DNA from: Saprospiraceae bacterium
GTDB taxonomy: Bacteria; Bacteroidota; Bacteroidia; Chitinophagales; Saprospiraceae
Reading direction: 5' to 3'
NCBI GenBank assembly: GCA_027080725.1
Contig: JALWRC010000095.1
Span: 71,415 to 112,716 of the forward strand
DNA: 41,302 nt
Every line of letters begins with the position of its first letter. Positions within the stretch are counted from its first letter, which is position 1. Shown in pieces: positions 23,312 through 30,358 of the stretch. Both the position numbers and the translations under genes were made by a program. A model generated the notes under the pieces. It saw nothing but the letters and a program-made list of their open reading frames with translations. It did no database searches and was not told where the DNA came from.

Positions 23312-24439
23312 ATGTCGGGCATTTATATTCATATTCCATTTTGCAAGAGAAAGTGTCACTACTGCAACTTTCATCTTTCCGCCTCGATGAAGTATAAGGA
23401 CGATGTCGTGGCCGCTATCCTAAAAGAGATCTCCCTGACCCCGGATTTTTTGAAGGGAAAGCAGTTATCCACCATCTATTTTGGAGGAGGTACGCCTTCC
23501 ATTTTGTCCTCAGAAGATTTTGCGCTTATTTTTAATCAGCTCGAGGCGCACTATTCATTGGATTGCCTCAAAGAGGTGACCGTCGAATGCAATCCGGATG
23601 ACGTAACCCCTGATTTTATTCGAGGATTGGAGGGAACACCGGTCAATCGCTATAGCCTGGGAGTACAGTCTTTTTATGACGGCGACCTTCGGGCACTCAA
23701 CCGTACACACACGAAAAAGCAGGTTTTTCAAGCGATAGAATTGATAAGGCACTCCAATGCGAAAAGTTGGACTTTGGACCTGATTTATGGCTTGCCGGAG
23801 ATGACCATGGAGCGTTGGATGTCCAACCTGCAAATGACCCATGCAGTGGATGCCCCGCATATCAGCGCATATGCACTGACAGTGGAGCCCCGCACGGCAC
23901 TTTACCATTTCATACAAAAAAGGCAACTACGTCTGCCGGATGATGGTCAAGTCACTGCGCACTTTGATGCCCTTATGAGATGGGCCGGGGAGCGAGGGTA
24001 TGAGCATTACGAAATCTCTAATTATGCGCTTCGCGGTCATCGTGCGGTGCACAATTCTTCATATTGGGAGGGGCAAGCCTATCTCGGCTTGGGTCCCGGT
24101 GCGCACTCTTTTGACGGAGCCTTTATCCGAAGGTGGAATGTGCGCAACAATCCGATCTATGTGCGTAAAATCGCACGGGGGGAGGTGCCCTATACTTCGG
24201 AGATGCTCACTCCGGATGATCTGTACAATGAGTATGTGATGACGCGTTTGCGGCTTTCTTCCGGAGTGTCCCGGATGGATTTGTCCGGCATGGGAGAGCG
24301 CTACTTGCATCGATTTGAAGAAGCCATTTCCCCCCATGTCGAATCGACACTCATACAACTATCTGAAGGACATTGGCGATTGACCGATGCGGGAAAACAC
24401 TTTGCCGATCGCATCGCTTCGGATGCCTTTATAATATGA
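23312..24439 (+). CDS. hemW: HemW-type radical SAM protein (coproporphyrinogen III oxidase-like)
   Basis: A radical SAM protein of 375 residues. The [4Fe-4S] motif CKRKCHYC (Cys11, Cys15, Cys18) follows IYIHIPF. TIYFGGGTPSIL, VTVECNPDDVT, NRYSLGVQSFYDGDLRALNR and WTLDLIYGLPEMT are family blocks. HemW proteins bind heme and act in heme delivery, and they lack the extra N-terminal cysteine region of true HemN. The first motif starting at residue 11 fits HemW rather than HemN. The protein is cytoplasmic. Its last 11 nt overlap the end of the convergent feoB gene, which leaves no room for a separate terminator. Confidence 0.93.
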   Translation: MSGIYIHIPFCKRKCHYCNFHLSASMKYKDDVVAAILKEISLTPDFLKGKQLSTIYFGGGTPSILSSEDFALIFNQLEAHYSLDCLKEVTVECNPDDVTPDFIRGLEGTPVNRYSLGVQSFYDGDLRALNRTHTKKQVFQAIELIRHSNAKSWTLDLIYGLPEMTMERWMSNLQMTHAVDAPHISAYALTVEPRTALYHFIQKRQLRLPDDGQVTAHFDALMRWAGERGYEHYEISNYALRGHRAVHNSSYWEGQAYLGLGPGAHSFDGAFIRRWNVRNNPIYVRKIARGEVPYTSEMLTPDDLYNEYVMTRLRLSSGVSRMDLSGMGERYLHRFEEAISPHVESTLIQLSEGHWRLTDAGKHFADRIASDAFII

Positions 24440-26648
24440 AATGATACCAAAGCACCGTCACCAGGAAGGTGACGATGAGTCCCAGTAATATGGGGAGAAA
24501 GGTCGATATAGTGGTCCATTTGAAGCTGTTGGTCTCTTTGTAAATCGTATAGATCGTTGTCGAACACGGATTGTGCAGAAGGCTCAATAGCATTAGATTA
24601 ATAGCGGTGAGCAGGGTCCATCCGCCGGCTTCGAGAATGGAGCCGATATGTTGTGCGGAGTCGGGCTCGAATAGTACTCCTCGCTCTCCTCCGGATGGTA
24701 TCCCGGTAATCAACGTAGTGAGCATAAGGATGACAGGAAGGACGAGCTCGTTGGCCGGAATCGCGATGATGTAGGCGAGAAAAATGACTCCATTGAGTCC
24801 GAAAATGAGAGCGTAGGGGTCGAGGTGTTGGATGATGGAGGTGGCCAAGGGAGCATCTCCCCATTGGATATTGCTCACTCCCCATATGACCAGTCCCGCC
24901 GGCACGGCAAATACGACAGCGCGCCAAAGTACGATGAGTGTCCGGTCTATCAGGGAGGTGTACAGGGTCTGCAGTATCTTAGGAGGGCGATACGGGGGGA
25001 GTTCGAGTGCATAAGTAGAGACCTCCCCTTTGAGTACGGTCTTGCTCAAAACCCATGAAATCGCCAAACTGAAAAATATACCGAGTACAGCCACTGACAC
25101 CACAGCAAGGGCGGTGGCTACACCGGACCATTCTTTGGGGACTAAGGCGCCGATGAAGATGGAGGCGATTAAGATTTGGGTCGGCCAACGACCGTTGCAC
25201 AAGGAGAAATTGTTGGTGATGATGGCAATCAATCGCTCCCTGGGGCTGTCAATGATACGAGTGGCCACGACTCCGGCGGCATTGCATCCGAAGCCCATCG
25301 CCATCGTCAAGGCCTGCTTTCCGTGTGCACCCACTTTTCTAAAGACATTGTCCATATTGAAGGATACCCTGGGCAAGTAGCCGAAATCCTCCAATAAAGT
25401 AAACAGGGGGAAGAATATCGCCATGGGGGGGAGCATGACGCTGACGACCCATGCTCCGGCCAGCCATGCACCATCGACCAAAGCTCCTGTAAGCCACCAG
25501 GGTGCATGTAGAGAAATAAAGAGGTGCTTTAACCATGGATGCAGGGTGCCGATAAGCAGTCCGGACAACCATTCGGAAGGGTAGTTGGCCCCTATGATGG
25601 TGAGCCAAAAGACGAAGGCCAAAAGCCCAACCATAATGACGGAGCCCCAAAAAGGATGGGTCACGATTCTGTCGATTTTCTGATCCCAATGATAGACGTG
25701 ATTCCTTTGGTCCGTGATTACAACATCCGTGGCTACTTTTTTGGCTTTTTTATAAATAGCCTCCAGGATTTTGTCATGGGTAAACATCCCGATATCCCAG
25801 CGCAATCGTCTGGACAAAGCAATAATATCCTCGTTAGACTTAGCTGGAGCGGAATTCGAGTCCCCCTCTGCTACTATGCTGTTGTCAAGAATGGCTTGAG
25901 TGATGCTGGGGTCTCCCTCCAACAATCTCAATGCCACCCACCGGGTGTTAGTCAAGGAGGGGAAGCGTTTCTGTAACACACTCTGTAGTTCATCCAATGG
26001 TTGTCGCAAAGTGGCGGGTAAGCGCCAACGCACTTTGGGTCGTGCTTTTATAGTGTTGTTGGCTACATTGTGGATGGCCTCTAAGAGTTGGGGGATGCCC
26101 TCACCGGAACGTGCGGAACATGGCACAACGGGGATCTTTAACCGGCGGGATAAAGCGCGGATATCCAATTCTATCCCTTGACGCTTGGCTTCATCCATCA
26201 AGTTGACGCATAGTACTACGTTATTGGTGATTTCGAGGATTTGGAGGGTCAGATTCAGATTGCGCTCCAACCGTGTAGCATCGACCACGATGACAGTCAC
26301 ATCCGGCTTGCCAAATAAAATGAAATCACGGGCTATTTTTTCATCCTCACTGGTAGATAAGAGGGAATAGGTGCCGGGAAGGTCTACGATTTTATACTTT
26401 TTAGAACGATATACGAAGCCCCCTTCAGCCCTCCCAACGGTTTTGCCGGGCCAATTTCCCGTGTGTTGGTTGAGTCCGGTCAGTTGGTTGAATACTGTAC
26501 TTTTACCGGTATTGGGGTTTCCAGCGAGGGCGATGACTCGATCAAAATCCCCCATCTTGATGCCTAGCTGGATTAGATGTCCGGAATGATGCACCGGACA
26601 AGTCTCACAGGTATTTTTAGCCACTGTACTTTTTTTGAATCCCATCAT
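24429..26648 (-). CDS. feoB: Ferrous iron transporter FeoB
   Basis: The GTPase-coupled Fe2+ importer of the inner membrane, 739 residues. The N-terminal G domain shows G1 GNPNTGKS, G3 DLPGTYSL and the G4-like NLMDEAKR. Gate-type membrane regions follow, including LPPMAIFFPLFTLLEDFGYL and MGFGCNAAGVVATRIIDSPR, which are canonical FeoB cores. Before the G domain is a short Cys/His cluster (Cys14, Cys17, His20, His21, His24) of the form CxxCxxHHxxH that could bind metal. The start codon overlaps the stop of the upstream DtxR-FeoA gene by 4 nt, so translation is coupled. Regulation is probably through the palindrome upstream of dtxR. Confidence 0.96.
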   Translation of the reverse strand: MMGFKKSTVAKNTCETCPVHHSGHLIQLGIKMGDFDRVIALAGNPNTGKSTVFNQLTGLNQHTGNWPGKTVGRAEGGFVYRSKKYKIVDLPGTYSLLSTSEDEKIARDFILFGKPDVTVIVVDATRLERNLNLTLQILEITNNVVLCVNLMDEAKRQGIELDIRALSRRLKIPVVPCSARSGEGIPQLLEAIHNVANNTIKARPKVRWRLPATLRQPLDELQSVLQKRFPSLTNTRWVALRLLEGDPSITQAILDNSIVAEGDSNSAPAKSNEDIIALSRRLRWDIGMFTHDKILEAIYKKAKKVATDVVITDQRNHVYHWDQKIDRIVTHPFWGSVIMVGLLAFVFWLTIIGANYPSEWLSGLLIGTLHPWLKHLFISLHAPWWLTGALVDGAWLAGAWVVSVMLPPMAIFFPLFTLLEDFGYLPRVSFNMDNVFRKVGAHGKQALTMAMGFGCNAAGVVATRIIDSPRERLIAIITNNFSLCNGRWPTQILIASIFIGALVPKEWSGVATALAVVSVAVLGIFFSLAISWVLSKTVLKGEVSTYALELPPYRPPKILQTLYTSLIDRTLIVLWRAVVFAVPAGLVIWGVSNIQWGDAPLATSIIQHLDPYALIFGLNGVIFLAYIIAIPANELVLPVILMLTTLITGIPSGGERGVLFEPDSAQHIGSILEAGGWTLLTAINLMLLSLLHNPCSTTIYTIYKETNSFKWTTISTFLPILLGLIVTFLVTVLWYHFIL

Positions 26649-27664
26649 TCCTCTTCAAAGTAATTTTCATCCGTGACTAAAATCTTGGCGGCCTGATCAG
26701 AGCGAAGGGCAATCAGGGTATTTAAAATCTCATAGGCTCTGGTATTTTTACCGGGGGAGTCAAGCATGGGAGTGACCTCATTGCCGGGGACAAAGCCCAA
26801 GTCGAGCAATCGTCTCCTTTGTCTTCCCCTCAAATCCTCCGAAATGCCGATAATCGTCCGGGTTTGACCGGTAGGTACGGTGTAGAGAGGGACGATATAA
26901 TCCCTGAATTTTTTTCTCGAACTGAGTCGCTGTACATTGATTGCAGCGGCCTCCATAGGGGAGAGGGCGGTTTCTCCCAGATGACTTTGAATAATCCGCT
27001 GTTTCGTTGATTTGTTTATCAATTTGATGATCAACTGGGGATAAATCCCTTTCTTGAGCAGAGCATGATAGATGGAGGCCGGTTCATCTTCCAAATGATT
27101 GATGATAGCGGATTCGCCGACTTCCAGGTCCAACACCGTAAGTTCCTTCATCCTTTGTGGGATTTCTCCCTTGGTTGTGGGGATGGGGTCTCCATGTGGG
27201 TCAAATACAGGGTTGCCCATTCGCCGGGTCATGTCCTCGAGTTCTGCGTCTGAGATATAATGTTCCATCGCATCTGCCATGGTGTGCCAGTGCGTGGCTT
27301 GCGTGCCGGTCTCCTCTGCCAGGTAACGCTCGATTAAGCGGTGTTTGCGGATGACCGACAGTGCCCTGGACCGCCCTCTATCGGTAAGGGAATAGCGGTT
27401 ATCCGTTTCTATTTGGATTTGCTTTTCGCTCAATAGTTGCTCCAACGCCCGGGTTACGACCTCCGGTCTGGAATGAAGATGACCGGTGAGATTATCCAAT
27501 CTGCAAGGGGTATTGGTATATTCACAATCAAAGATATACTTGAGGATGTCATCGGATAAAAATTGCATCGCACGATGACTGTGTTTGGTGCGCCACCGCC
27601 AATATCCCCAAAGCGTCACACATAAAAGAAAACCCCATACTACGTATATCGATCCACTATTCAT
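26645..27664 (-). CDS. Membrane-anchored DtxR-like protein fused to two FeoA-type domains
   Basis: A fusion of 339 residues. A single membrane segment lies near residues 4-21 (SIYVVWGFLLCVTLWGYW), followed by basic residues that place the rest in the cytoplasm. Residues about 35-170 resemble DtxR/MntR regulators: a winged-helix region, YSLTDRGRSRALSVIRKHRL, a dimerisation helix with ADAMEHYIS, and DPHGDPIP. Two SH3-like FeoA domains follow: about 170-245 (LTVLDLEVGESAIINHL) and about 258-330 (RRLLDLGFVPGNEV). I chose the ATG at 27664, which overlaps the dtxR stop by 8 nt. An ATG at 27685 is possible. It is coupled to feoB by a 4-nt overlap. It presumably supplies the FeoA function and may sense metal at the membrane. 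Whether it still binds DNA is unknown. Confidence 0.85.
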   Translation of the reverse strand: MNSGSIYVVWGFLLCVTLWGYWRWRTKHSHRAMQFLSDDILKYIFDCEYTNTPCRLDNLTGHLHSRPEVVTRALEQLLSEKQIQIETDNRYSLTDRGRSRALSVIRKHRLIERYLAEETGTQATHWHTMADAMEHYISDAELEDMTRRMGNPVFDPHGDPIPTTKGEIPQRMKELTVLDLEVGESAIINHLEDEPASIYHALLKKGIYPQLIIKLINKSTKQRIIQSHLGETALSPMEAAAINVQRLSSRKKFRDYIVPLYTVPTGQTRTIIGISEDLRGRQRRRLLDLGFVPGNEVTPMLDSPGKNTRAYEILNTLIALRSDQAAKILVTDENYFEEE

Positions 27665-28334
27665 CGCAAGTCGATTGGGTGACAAATATCCGTCTGGAGA
27701 CTTCCGCGCTGAGGATTACTTCCCGTTCATCAATTTGTATGGATTTCGAATGATCAAAATCAAAGTGCGCAATTAACCGGATGTCCTTGTGGAGCATGAT
27801 CCCTATTTGGGTTATGAAACGCATAAACTCCTCATCTTGATCCTCCACTCTGGAGATGATGTAATGCCCGGGTCGCATTATGCTATAAATGGCAGTTTCG
27901 CCGGCTCTGTTGTTAAGCGGCCATTTGCCGTCGGAGGTGGGAATCAAATCCCCGTGTGGGTCGGTCTTCGGGTGTCCGAGAAACTCCGCCAGTCTGTCCG
28001 CTAATTTGTCTGAAGTGCTGTGTTCCAACTTCTCCGCTTCTTCGTGCACCTCTTCCCATCGGTAACCCAATACCTCTTGCAAAAACGTCTCCCAAAGGCG
28101 ATGCTTCCGGATAATGCGCAGGGCTTGGCGGGTTCCTTCTTCCGTAAGTTGCATTCCCCGGTATTTCTTATAGTCAATCCACCCTTTGGCTTCCATTTTC
28201 TTGGCCATGTCGCTAATGGCGGGATTGGAAATGGACAATGCCTCTGAAACGGCAGTGGTCGTAACACGACGGGTTCCCTTTTGAGAGAGATGGAAAATAG
28301 TCTTAAGATAATTCTCGCGTGAAATACTCGGCAT
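27657..28334 (-). CDS. DtxR/MntR-family metal-dependent repressor
   Basis: A 225-residue cytoplasmic repressor. The winged helix is at the N-terminus (YLKTIFHLSQKGTRRVTTTA, then SISNPAISDMAKKMEAKGWI as recognition region), followed by the wing MQLTEEGTRQALRIIRKHRL. The metal-binding and dimerisation region includes WEEVHEEAEKLEHSTSDKLA and the characteristic DPHGDLIP. A C-terminal SH3-like domain completes it. Members bind DNA when loaded with Fe2+ or Mn2+, and which metal applies here is not certain. It is the first gene of a coupled group with the DtxR-FeoA fusion and feoB. A perfect palindrome 22 nt upstream of its ATG is the probable operator, so it likely represses its own transcript. 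Confidence 0.93.
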   Translation of the reverse strand: MPSISRENYLKTIFHLSQKGTRRVTTTAVSEALSISNPAISDMAKKMEAKGWIDYKKYRGMQLTEEGTRQALRIIRKHRLWETFLQEVLGYRWEEVHEEAEKLEHSTSDKLADRLAEFLGHPKTDPHGDLIPTSDGKWPLNNRAGETAIYSIMRPGHYIISRVEDQDEEFMRFITQIGIMLHKDIRLIAHFDFDHSKSIQIDEREVILSAEVSRRIFVTQSTCDE

Positions 28335-28355
28335 GTATTAAGTATGGTTAAGTTA

Positions 28356-28379
28356 ATATTTTAAGTGCACTTAAAATAT
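28356..28379. promoter_or_regulatory. 24-nt perfect palindrome, probable DtxR-family operator
   Basis: A perfect 24-nt palindrome with core TTTTAAGTGCACTTAAAA. It sits 22 nt upstream of the dtxR ATG, with the size and AT-rich two-fold symmetry typical of DtxR/MntR/IdeR boxes. Symmetry and position are seen in the sequence. Binding is inferred. Confidence 0.75.
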
Positions 28380-28555: not shown

Positions 28556-29524
28556 TTATCCCGGCTCCTTGCCTCCTTTTAGGAAGTCCTGGAGCTCGCC
28601 GAGCTCTTTCCATTTGCCCTGGTCGGCTAGTTTCGCTTGTTTAGGCCATGTTCCCGGATCTGCCAAAGAGAATCGGGAACCGGCATCAGATAGTAATTGT
28701 TTTAGCCGGTCTACGGAGGCTTCAGACAATGCTTTCCAGGTGGTAATTCCCGCAGCATGCAGTAACTGTTCGATTTTGGGGCCGATACCTTCGACGGCCT
28801 TGAGGTCGTCTTGCTTATAGCGCTTTAAGATACCCATCTTAATCAAGATCTTTTCGACCTTGGCATCGGTTTGGTGTCCATCAGATACGGAGGAACCGCT
28901 CAATGACTTTTGAAACTGGATGAGTTTTTCCCATTCCCCATCCCGGGCCATCCCGGCTTGCATTGGCCAGGTGGAAGGGTCTATTATCCTGTACTTGCCA
29001 CCGTGCTTGTCGAGCATGGCTTTGATGTCAGACTTGTCCAGTTTGGCAAGGTCAGACCATGTGTGAATGCCATTTTCATTGAGTAGACGGTTCATGACAG
29101 GCCCTATTCCTTCCACCACTTGTAGGTTGTCATTGGGGATGCCGCCAAACAGGGAAGCACTTTCCGATGTGCTTTCCTTTGATGGCTTCGAAATGCCGGT
29201 TGCAGCGATACCCAACGGAGCATCGGTGGAGGATGCTTTTGCCCGGCATTTGGCCAATTCTTCTTCCAGTCCTTTGATCTGGACTCGAAGCATATTATTA
29301 TCCGAGGCAAGCTCGTTTTTATCCGCTTGGCATGCATCGTACTTGCCTTGCAAACCCTTATAATCTTCCTGGCAGCGATGTAGTGTTGCTTGGCAGGATT
29401 CGAGTAGCTTTTTGAATTTTCCCCATAAGAGCCATCCTAAGAGTAGCCCAAGTAAAAATGGAAGTAGCCACCATAGTAACAACCAGGGAAATGTGCCGAG
29501 GTCACAGAGAGTTAACCATATCAT
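28556..29524 (-). CDS. Membrane-anchored coiled-coil protein with duplicated helix-hairpin-helix units
   Basis: A 322-residue protein with clear architecture. Residues about 13-34 form a membrane helix (LLLWWLLPFLLGLLLGWLLW). Residues 36-97 read as a coiled coil with regularly spaced cysteines. After a Ser/Thr-rich linker come two copies of a unit of about 75 residues: 136-208 (VEGIGPVMNRLLNENGIHTW, ending DGEWEKLIQFQKSL) and 244-315 (VEGIGPKIEQLLHAAGITTW, ending QGKWKELGELQDFL). Each has an EGIGP helix-hairpin-helix core and a DPxTWPxQA segment. Such cores bind DNA or mediate protein contacts. It is 24 bp downstream of the OmpA-domain gene and probably cotranscribed, with its own terminator after it. 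Function unknown. Confidence 0.82.
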   Translation of the reverse strand: MIWLTLCDLGTFPWLLLWWLLPFLLGLLLGWLLWGKFKKLLESCQATLHRCQEDYKGLQGKYDACQADKNELASDNNMLRVQIKGLEEELAKCRAKASSTDAPLGIAATGISKPSKESTSESASLFGGIPNDNLQVVEGIGPVMNRLLNENGIHTWSDLAKLDKSDIKAMLDKHGGKYRIIDPSTWPMQAGMARDGEWEKLIQFQKSLSGSSVSDGHQTDAKVEKILIKMGILKRYKQDDLKAVEGIGPKIEQLLHAAGITTWKALSEASVDRLKQLLSDAGSRFSLADPGTWPKQAKLADQGKWKELGELQDFLKGGKEPG

Positions 29525-29548
29525 AATCGTGTTGTTTTTATGTTAAAC

Positions 29549-30358
29549 TTATTTGATTTCTAATGCTACACGTCTGTTTTTTTGACGTCCTGAATCGGTG
29601 GTATTAGGAGCGATCGGAGCGGTCTCTCCCTTCGAACGCACCACCATTTGATTGGACGGCACACCGTGTTTTTTAAGATAATCGGCTATCTTATTCGCCC
29701 GTTTGAGGCCCAATCTATAGTTGTACGCCTTACTGGAATGACTGTCAGTATGACCGGTAAGATATACCTTTTGCCCGCTGGATTTAACTGTAGCGGCAAC
29801 CTGATTTAAGTAGGTCAGTACTTCTTGATCTTCGATCGGCCGATCCGTTCCGTATTCGAAATAGATTAATGTCCGGTCTTTGAGCTGGATGACTTTCTTA
29901 GGTGGTTGCTTGTTTTCCACAGAGAAAGCATAGGATTTGAAGAGCTCATCTTTGCGAATGGAAGCATTGTTCAAGGCACCACGGGTGATGATCCTGTCTT
30001 TATCGATTGTCGGTGACTGAATAAGCAAGGTCTTTATCGCCTCCGCTCTGGCCAATCCGAGATTATCATATTGGGTGTTATTGACTTCATCGGCACCGTA
30101 ATACCCTGTGACGATTAGGTTTTGTCCGTCTTTTAGCCCGGCGAGGATGCGCCGTTTATAATCTGGAAATTTGTCGGTCGTAAATGCCTTATTATTGTTG
30201 TACTCAAAGAGGAGCGGGTCTCGCTCTACTTCTTTGGCAGGAGTCGCAGGTTGTTCCTTAATGACAGCATTCGTACAACAATCCTGTTGATGATTCGTCT
30301 TGACGGTATAGTAGAATACCCCTAAAATTAACCATAAAAAGATAATTAGCCATTTCAT
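29549..30358 (-). CDS. OmpA-domain protein with N-terminal membrane anchor
   Basis: A 269-residue envelope protein. It starts with one hydrophobic helix (WLIIFLWLILGVFYYTV) that lacks a lipobox and looks like an uncleaved anchor. Two OmpA-like regions follow. The first, about residues 50-145 (NLIVTGYYGADEVNNTQYDN and LGLARAEAIKTLL), is degenerate. The second, about 150-269, carries the peptidoglycan-binding pattern YLTGHTDSHSSKAYNYRLGL, RANKIADYLKKHGVPSNQM and GRQKNRRVALEIK. It probably contacts peptidoglycan from the inner membrane. It precedes the coiled-coil/HhH gene by 24 bp, so the two likely act together at the envelope. A weak 7-bp inverted repeat (30381-30400) is just upstream. Confidence 0.85.
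   Translation of the reverse strand: MKWLIIFLWLILGVFYYTVKTNHQQDCCTNAVIKEQPATPAKEVERDPLLFEYNNNKAFTTDKFPDYKRRILAGLKDGQNLIVTGYYGADEVNNTQYDNLGLARAEAIKTLLIQSPTIDKDRIITRGALNNASIRKDELFKSYAFSVENKQPPKKVIQLKDRTLIYFEYGTDRPIEDQEVLTYLNQVAATVKSSGQKVYLTGHTDSHSSKAYNYRLGLKRANKIADYLKKHGVPSNQMVVRSKGETAPIAPNTTDSGRQKNRRVALEIK

Follow-up and report, generated by a model that had tools for sequence, protein, structure and literature searches.

What does a metal sensor of the DtxR family do when it is tied to the membrane beside a metal transporter? The question is raised by a three-gene operon in a 41,302-nucleotide (nt) stretch of DNA from Saprospiraceae bacterium (assembly GCA_027080725.1, contig JALWRC010000095.1, positions 71,415-112,716); the whole stretch is called the window here, and coordinates are window positions. 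All three genes lie on the minus strand and encode, in this order, a soluble DtxR, a protein that joins a membrane helix, a DtxR part and two FeoA domains (hereafter the anchored protein), and FeoB. Because the metal ligands of the anchored protein are conserved, its recognition helix and wing are eroded and FeoB lies downstream in 100/100 loci, we consider it rather probable that this protein is a DtxR-derived membrane metal sensor serving as a FeoA-type regulatory subunit of the neighbouring FeoB. The gene order had been proposed in a sequence-only reading of the window, with overlaps of 8 nt between the soluble DtxR gene and the anchored gene and of 4 nt between the anchored gene and feoB, and the open reading frames bore it out. 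The operon comprises the following features.

28356-28379, no strand: perfect palindrome of 24 base pairs (bp), likely operator of the operon; core TTTTAAGTGCACTTAAAA at 28359-28376
27657-28334, minus strand: soluble DtxR/MntR-type regulator, 225 amino acids (aa), with an intact winged helix-turn-helix (HTH), one SH3/FeoA domain and an HTH score of 62.7 bits
26645-27664, minus strand: anchored protein (membrane helix, DtxR, FeoA, FeoA), 339 aa counted from ATG, 346 aa from a TTG start (open reading frame, Pfam, AlphaFold2, Foldseek)
27590-27649, minus strand: its predicted transmembrane helix, residues ~6-25, N-terminus out and C-terminus in (positive-inside rule, hydrophobicity, AlphaFold2)
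27386-27553, minus strand: its degenerate winged helix, residues 38-93, recognition helix 67-76 (Pfam, entropy, HTH scores)
27176-27385, minus strand: its metal-binding/dimerisation domain, residues 94-163, with ligands H108, E112, H127, D131, E134 and H135, plus D39 from the first DtxR helix
26930-27133, minus strand: its first FeoA/SH3 domain, HxEDEP motif at residues 190-195 (sequence motif)
26672-26893, minus strand: its second (C-terminal) FeoA domain, RRRLLDLG motif (Pfam, match to solved chain 7r7b)
24429-26648, minus strand: FeoB, single chain, 739 aa, CNGRWP class (open reading frame, Pfam, NCBIfam)
26586-26609, minus strand: CETCPVHH motif at the FeoB N-terminus, of CxxCPxHN type in many relatives
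25824-25883, minus strand: FeoB linker, residues 256-275, the point of splitting into two genes in most relatives (locus comparison)
25182-25199, minus strand: CNGRWP permease motif of FeoB; the genome's other FeoB has CSARIP

Conservation of the metal site and erosion of the DNA-reading parts

The family was represented by 102 non-redundant members, namely 31 plus 71 of the best 80 loci from a wide scan of one genome per species (84,980 species), after removal of L150-L153, of duplicates and of loci that scored below 240 bits or were shorter than 300 aa. Five ligands (H108, E112, H127, E134 and H135) were invariant in the 102 members, D39 was present in 98/102, and position 131 was E or D in 89/102. 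The soluble neighbour is a good control for the anchored protein, since it comes from the same genome and the same operon, and the comparison of the two proteins' ligands and recognition helices suggested by the sequence-only reading was run over the 51 loci that carry both (in a few pairs, L116, L124 and L125, the soluble DtxR lies 0.1-0.7 kb away). The two sets were equally diverse (mean core identity 0.493 anchored vs 0.508 soluble) and their ligands equally conserved (entropy 0.18 vs 0.27 bits), whereas entropy was raised in the anchored proteins alone at the recognition helix (2.63 vs 1.26 bits) and at the wing (3.22 vs 1.87 bits). Residues 67-76 ranked first of 115 ten-residue segments for excess variability in anchored over soluble proteins. 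Scored with a profile built from soluble HTH regions, the soluble sets had medians of 71 and 75 bits (minima of -10, meaning no match, being kept) and the anchored proteins medians of 5.7 bits with and 3.2 bits without a soluble partner; the window pair scored 62.7 bits (soluble) and -1.0 bits (anchored). By these measures, recognition helix and wing are eroded specifically in the anchored DtxR, with the metal site retained.

Profile and structure searches agreed on the ancestry of the protein. Consistently with the DtxR and FeoA parts named in the sequence-only reading, Fe_dep_repr_C (PF02742) matched residues 94-163 at 1.3e-22 and FeoA (PF04023) matched two stretches at 2e-19, both being found in 31/31 family members tested; the C-terminal FeoA domain also resembled the solved chain 7r7b, named ferrous iron transport protein B (E 4.4e-4). 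The DtxR DNA-binding model PF01325 had no match to the anchored protein in a Pfam search at E up to 1, whereas the soluble DtxR matched all three models. The DtxR-like winged helix that had been described in the anchored protein thus stood as a fold, retained in the AlphaFold2 model, and not as a profile match. The best solved Foldseek matches were manganese and iron repressors (5zr6 at 1.9e-15, SloR, ScaR and IdeR), and PADLOC gave weak matches at most (best E 0.0087 for the anchored protein, 6e-4 for the soluble DtxR). Judged by these comparisons, descent from the DtxR family is clear, and it is the recognition helix that sets the protein apart from true DtxR repressors: the fold, the metal/dimerisation domain and the ligands are those of DtxR, MntR, ScaR and IdeR, and the anchored protein differs from them by its membrane anchor, its second FeoA domain and its eroded recognition helix and wing.

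A predicted membrane helix in nearly all members

AlphaFold2 modelled residues 2-49 as one continuous helix leading into the DtxR fold, with a mean predicted local distance difference test score (pLDDT) of 89.9. The membrane helix that had been claimed from the sequence was located at residues ~6-25 and was upheld on the octanol scale (sum -13.4 kcal/mol, rank 44/102 within the family); by Kyte-Doolittle it was marginal (1.37-1.51, the lower value just under the cut of 1.4). Across the family, a helix was predicted in 97/102 members on the octanol scale and in 96/102 at the Kyte-Doolittle cut of 1.4, the window's own helix just missing it. In 54 soluble DtxRs used as control, the lowest octanol value was -2.98 and the median +5.58, the gap between the weakest accepted helix (-4.57) and the most hydrophobic control being narrow. 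That the helix might be an artefact was ruled out by its recurrence on both scales. Basic residues after the helix outnumbered those before it in 96/96 scored members and, because of this distribution, the positive-inside rule would place the DtxR and FeoA part in the cytosol.

FeoB as the constant partner

The anchored protein occurred in 41/395 genomes of a phylum sample, the window's genome included, with a clear cut (gap between E 6e-51 and 1e-26), which together with the at least 102 collected members rules out a fusion confined to one genome. Members came from at least eleven named phyla: Bacteroidota, Balneolota, Ignavibacteriota, Calditrichota, Acidobacteriota, Verrucomicrobiota, Gemmatimonadota, Chloroflexota, Planctomycetota, Myxococcota and Chlorobiota, the sole collected Chlorobiota member being one without the helix. 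Within the taxonomic order to which the window belongs, the anchored protein was found in one (G111) of 197 other genomes.

How widely the order of helix, DtxR, FeoA and feoB is conserved had been left to a survey by the sequence-only reading, and FeoB was constant: in 100/100 loci with DNA there, a FeoB frame of the same orientation began no more than 400 nt downstream. A soluble DtxR ended within 150 nt upstream of the anchored gene in 49/95 loci with upstream DNA, frequently in some groups (phylum draw 25/30, Bacteroidota 12/16, Ignavibacteriota 4/5) and rarely in others (Chloroflexota 4/18, Acidobacteriota 1/7, Gemmatimonadota 0/8). Because the soluble partner is limited to these loci and uneven among phyla, the core unit is the anchored protein with FeoB, and the soluble DtxR is an addition. 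In one genome (G476, C1:1067002-1070049), the anchored gene is preceded at a distance of ~1 kb by an Nramp gene of the same orientation, in the place that the soluble DtxR takes in many other loci.

This is a real and widespread variant of the DtxR/FeoA/FeoB theme that has apparently been overlooked so far; a literature search, with most subscription papers outside it, found no description of a membrane-anchored DtxR-FeoA protein or of a split FeoB.

The same pattern in ABC-permease fusions

Eleven distinct fusions of an ABC-3-type permease to a DtxR were found in the window's family and in Euzebyaceae (L155, L157-L160, L162-L166 and L150). As in the anchored protein, a DtxR is tied to a metal transporter, the ligands are kept (D39, H108, E112, H127, E134 and H135 in 11/11, position 131 being E or D in 11) and the recognition helix is eroded (2.33 bits vs 0.67 and 1.25 in soluble sets); they differ from it in that a whole permease is fused and the transporter is of another type. 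L150 carries both a permease-DtxR fusion and a soluble DtxR with an intact helix on the same contig.

In an unrooted tree of 101 columns, from which the HTH columns had been omitted, all 34 soluble DtxRs, including those of other phyla, stood opposite the tethered ones with branch support 99/98. Neither tethered kind formed one group, the long-branch ABC fusion AB_L150 being placed among the anchored family. The trees held 40 and 30 of the 102 anchored proteins, drawn at random, with the long-branch L113, L123 and L127 excluded from the second, and a single origin of tethered DtxRs is possible on this evidence. Moreover, a profile of the anchored family's helix and linker matched the last helix of several permeases (best 1.6e-5, six at or below 0.22; the best true control was 0.67, two higher control matches being family members), and the fusions have a P-x-x-G-L-like linker after their last permease helix. 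These matches are suggestive of the anchor helix being a remnant of the last ABC-permease helix, which we leave unproven: ABC-3 was absent among the 25 of 51 Pfam families displayed for 31 members, and membrane helices resemble each other.

Manganese as the more likely metal

FeoB had been called the iron transporter in the sequence-only reading; its family assignment was confirmed, and iron became doubtful, manganese looking the likelier metal. The window's genome (100% complete by tool estimate) gave no match to Nramp or ABC-3, other manganese importer families lying outside the search, and elsewhere (C68, 1690-4034; L154) it holds a further feo pair of the canonical kind, feoA with 69 aa and feoB with 707 aa and motif CSARIP. 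In the phylum sample, any Nramp (E≤1e-3) was found in 10/41 genomes with the system vs 258/354 without (p 2e-9), and an MntH-type Nramp (E≤1e-100) in 2/41 vs 145/354 (p 7e-7), these and the following p-values all treating related genomes as independent. In a single family (79 genomes), 1/60 genomes with the system had an MntH-type Nramp vs 8/19 without the system (p 2e-5); four of those eight genomes were less than 90% complete, and the 56 good genomes alone gave 1/44 vs 4/12 (p 0.006), the contrast being weaker for any Nramp (21/60 vs 13/19, p 0.016). Within one genus, the MntH-type counts were 1/5 vs 7/7, and 1/5 vs 4/4 in good genomes (p 0.05). Because the genome lacks an Nramp or ABC-3 match and has a second, canonical FeoAB, and because Nramp is depleted where the system occurs, these distributions suggest, short of proof, that the transported metal is more likely Mn2+ than Fe2+. 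Many of the strongest Nramp matches lay in open reading frames of ~625-650 codons, ~200 above the others, an extra domain being likely.

An iron system, in which the FeoB would be a further Fe2+ importer and its regulator would sense iron, is a serious possibility that falls short of an even chance and would be compatible with a membrane sensor serving FeoB. The FeoB family match speaks for it, and boxes of the DtxR type are used by regulators of iron as well as of manganese; the canonical FeoAB in the same genome, the absence of Nramp and ABC-3 matches there, and a distribution complementary to MntH-type Nramp speak against it. The ligands are also of the D/E kind of MntR and not the Met/Cys kind of DtxR (ligand types as given in the available text of PMC4805248).

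The closest described protein is divided on this point. According to the same text (PMC4805248), PgMntR (PG1044) of Porphyromonas gingivalis is soluble, combines a DtxR with twin FeoA domains and shares its operon with FeoB2 (PG1043), the only characterised manganese transporter of that organism. This neighbour and the tight binding of three Mn2+ per monomer speak for manganese here, and the binding of Fe2+, also reported for PgMntR, for an iron system. In gel shifts it bound promoter DNA at 700-1000 nM without a need for metal, and removal of its second FeoA domain abolished both manganese and DNA binding; its authors counted 41 full-length homologues, spread over three phyla, and proposed a new subfamily, the word 'transmembrane' being absent from the available text. 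Like the anchored protein, PgMntR joins a DtxR to two FeoA domains and is encoded together with a FeoB in one operon, and its ligands have the same spacing: H85/E89/H104/E111/H112/D132/H134 correspond to H108/E112/H127/E134/H135/D155/H157, D19 to D39, and H166/D169/E170 to H190/D193/E194 (published numbers set against the window sequence). Unlike the anchored protein, PgMntR, which we compared by its published description and not by sequence, has 310 aa, is highly soluble, has Cys108 where most anchored family members have E or D, and has been shown to bind promoter DNA. It has no room for an anchor helix, because 20 fewer residues precede its first ligand.

A FeoB class that is usually split

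The window's FeoB scored 386.8 bits against TIGR00437 (cut-off 315.65), with matches to the G domain and Gate domains. The permease motif CNGR[WFY]P was present in 104/104 complete loci read, and a CxxCPxHN motif at the FeoB N-terminus in many. At E≤1e-90, this class was found in 46/395 genomes of the phylum sample, including all 41 with the anchored protein. In 80/104 complete loci (8/112 loci being left out as incomplete), FeoB is split into a GTPase gene (~265 codons) and a permease gene (~480 codons), at the linker corresponding to residues 256-275 (split loci are among L168-L202 and L074-L149); after removal of duplicates with an identical GTPase segment the count was 78/97. The window's FeoB is a single-chain case. 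In split loci, the free GTPase may be kept at the permease with the aid of a FeoA partner bound to the membrane.

These data also bear on whether the protein is a plain membrane-bound FeoA, the DtxR part being a relic used for dimerisation only and the metal site being structural. The FeoA-like C-terminal domain and the separate GTPase, which makes recruitment to the permease conceivable, agree with such a role, but a relic would be expected to lose its ligands, and here they match those of the soluble neighbours in conservation; furthermore, a split FeoB stands beside an ordinary soluble DtxR, without the anchored protein, in four genomes (G239, G316, G332 and G354); we regard this explanation as unlikely. 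In a fifth genome with this FeoB class and no anchored protein (G491), the locus is interrupted by a contig end. The FeoB N-terminal Cys motif is missing in 3/4 of the split-FeoB genomes without the anchored protein (L197, L198, L199, L200).

FeoC, a winged-helix protein, is comparable as an accessory of FeoB and different in kind, the winged helix of the anchored protein being of DtxR descent with a metal site; the FeoC Pfam family was absent among the anchored protein's four Pfam matches at E up to 1. FeoC is described as a FeoB accessory mainly of Gammaproteobacteria in PMC8749426, in the available text of which the words 'DtxR' and 'split' are absent. FeoA itself has been reported to stabilise GTP-bound FeoB (PMC8980893), and FeoA-DtxR fusions were taken out by hand from the survey in that paper, as far as its available text goes. 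FeoA proteins and FeoA-FeoB fusions such as BfFeoAB share with the window's system a FeoA domain beside FeoB, and differ in that the FeoA of the window's system sits on a DtxR chain.

The soluble DtxR, its candidate operator and the question of DNA binding

The 24-bp palindrome lies directly upstream of the operon, and its 18-bp core TTTTAAGTGCACTTAAAA has no second perfect copy in the genome, where four sites have 3 mismatches. A DtxR-type box (TTTAR-N6-YTAAA) was found within 150 bp upstream of 32/53 soluble-DtxR genes vs 0.55 expected, a figure to be read with a pattern written after the palindromes had been viewed, shuffles that preserve base composition only, and one genome counted twice (L053/L085); 26/32 boxes begin 29-48 bp before the gene start. 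Because of these boxes and its intact HTH, the soluble DtxR probably represses the operon via the palindrome.

Tethered regulators of the CadC/ToxR type bind DNA, and the anchored protein might likewise be a one-component repressor of the operon that acts on DNA from the membrane. It is improbable in that role, because recognition helix and wing are its most specifically eroded parts, residues 50-93 carry on average a charge of -0.67 vs +1.78 in soluble proteins (standard deviation ~2.3 each, a wide spread), a soluble DtxR is already adjacent in 49/95 loci, and members without such a partner are also eroded (median 3.2 bits), against which stand the retained winged-helix fold, PF01325 matches (E up to 1, the best being 7.2e-6) in 12/31 members, the promoter binding of PgMntR (PMC4805248), and boxes upstream of the anchored gene in 9/49 loci without an adjacent soluble DtxR (0.18 expected). 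The sequence-only reading had envisaged that the protein might control FeoB through direct contact, either in place of DNA binding or in addition to it; the kept ligands, the eroded DNA-reading parts, the FeoB in 100/100 loci and the same pattern in the ABC fusions favour the former.

Several observations weigh against this interpretation of the anchored protein as a membrane sensor for FeoB. The main loose end is that the boxes ahead of anchored genes without a soluble partner need a reader, which sits ill with a purely non-transcriptional role. Given the PgMntR gel shifts, the degenerate-looking HTH could still bind DNA; some basic character is left, position 76 being R or K in 61/102 anchored vs 53/54 soluble proteins, and the charge distributions are broad. 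Five of the 102 members have no predicted helix, one of these starting at a contig edge. FeoB can evidently work without the anchored protein, since the four genomes named above carry FeoB with a soluble DtxR only, and the Nramp contrasts share the assumption that related genomes are independent.

Around the operon, a HemW-type gene on the plus strand (23312-24439) runs towards feoB, and the stop ends of the two genes share 11 bp at 24429-24439. Upstream, the minus strand at 28556-30358 encodes an OmpA-like protein and a protein of helix-hairpin-helix repeats whose N-terminus is hydrophobic; no link to metal transport was seen in them.

Proposed mechanism and meaning for the DtxR family

In the mechanism that we propose, the N-terminal helix would keep the DtxR part and the FeoA domains on the cytosolic side of the membrane, the site of the FeoB GTPase. 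Cytosolic metal, more probably Mn2+ than Fe2+, would fill the conserved DtxR sites and change the shape of the dimer, and the C-terminal FeoA domain, by a presumed contact, might then lower (or gate) FeoB activity. The result would be a fast post-translational feedback on metal import, together with a slow feedback through the separate soluble DtxR, which presumably binds the palindrome upstream of the operon.

On a broader scale, we give about even weight to the view that DtxR-type sensors include a second, non-transcriptional lineage that regulates importers at the membrane and has given up DNA reading but not its metal site. Of its two branches, one would have a single helix and go with a distinct, usually split FeoB class, and the other would be joined to an ABC permease. 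Intact soluble DtxRs frequently accompany the single-helix branch and can also accompany the ABC-fusion branch. If this is true, a widespread set of DtxR-family proteins would not be transcription regulators, and many annotated 'metal-dependent transcriptional regulators' in about 12 phyla would be misnamed transporter subunits. The finding touches two open questions, namely the FeoA-type control of FeoB and whether some FeoB proteins import manganese, and a natural family in which the FeoA domain is part of a metal sensor whose ligands are known makes both directly testable.

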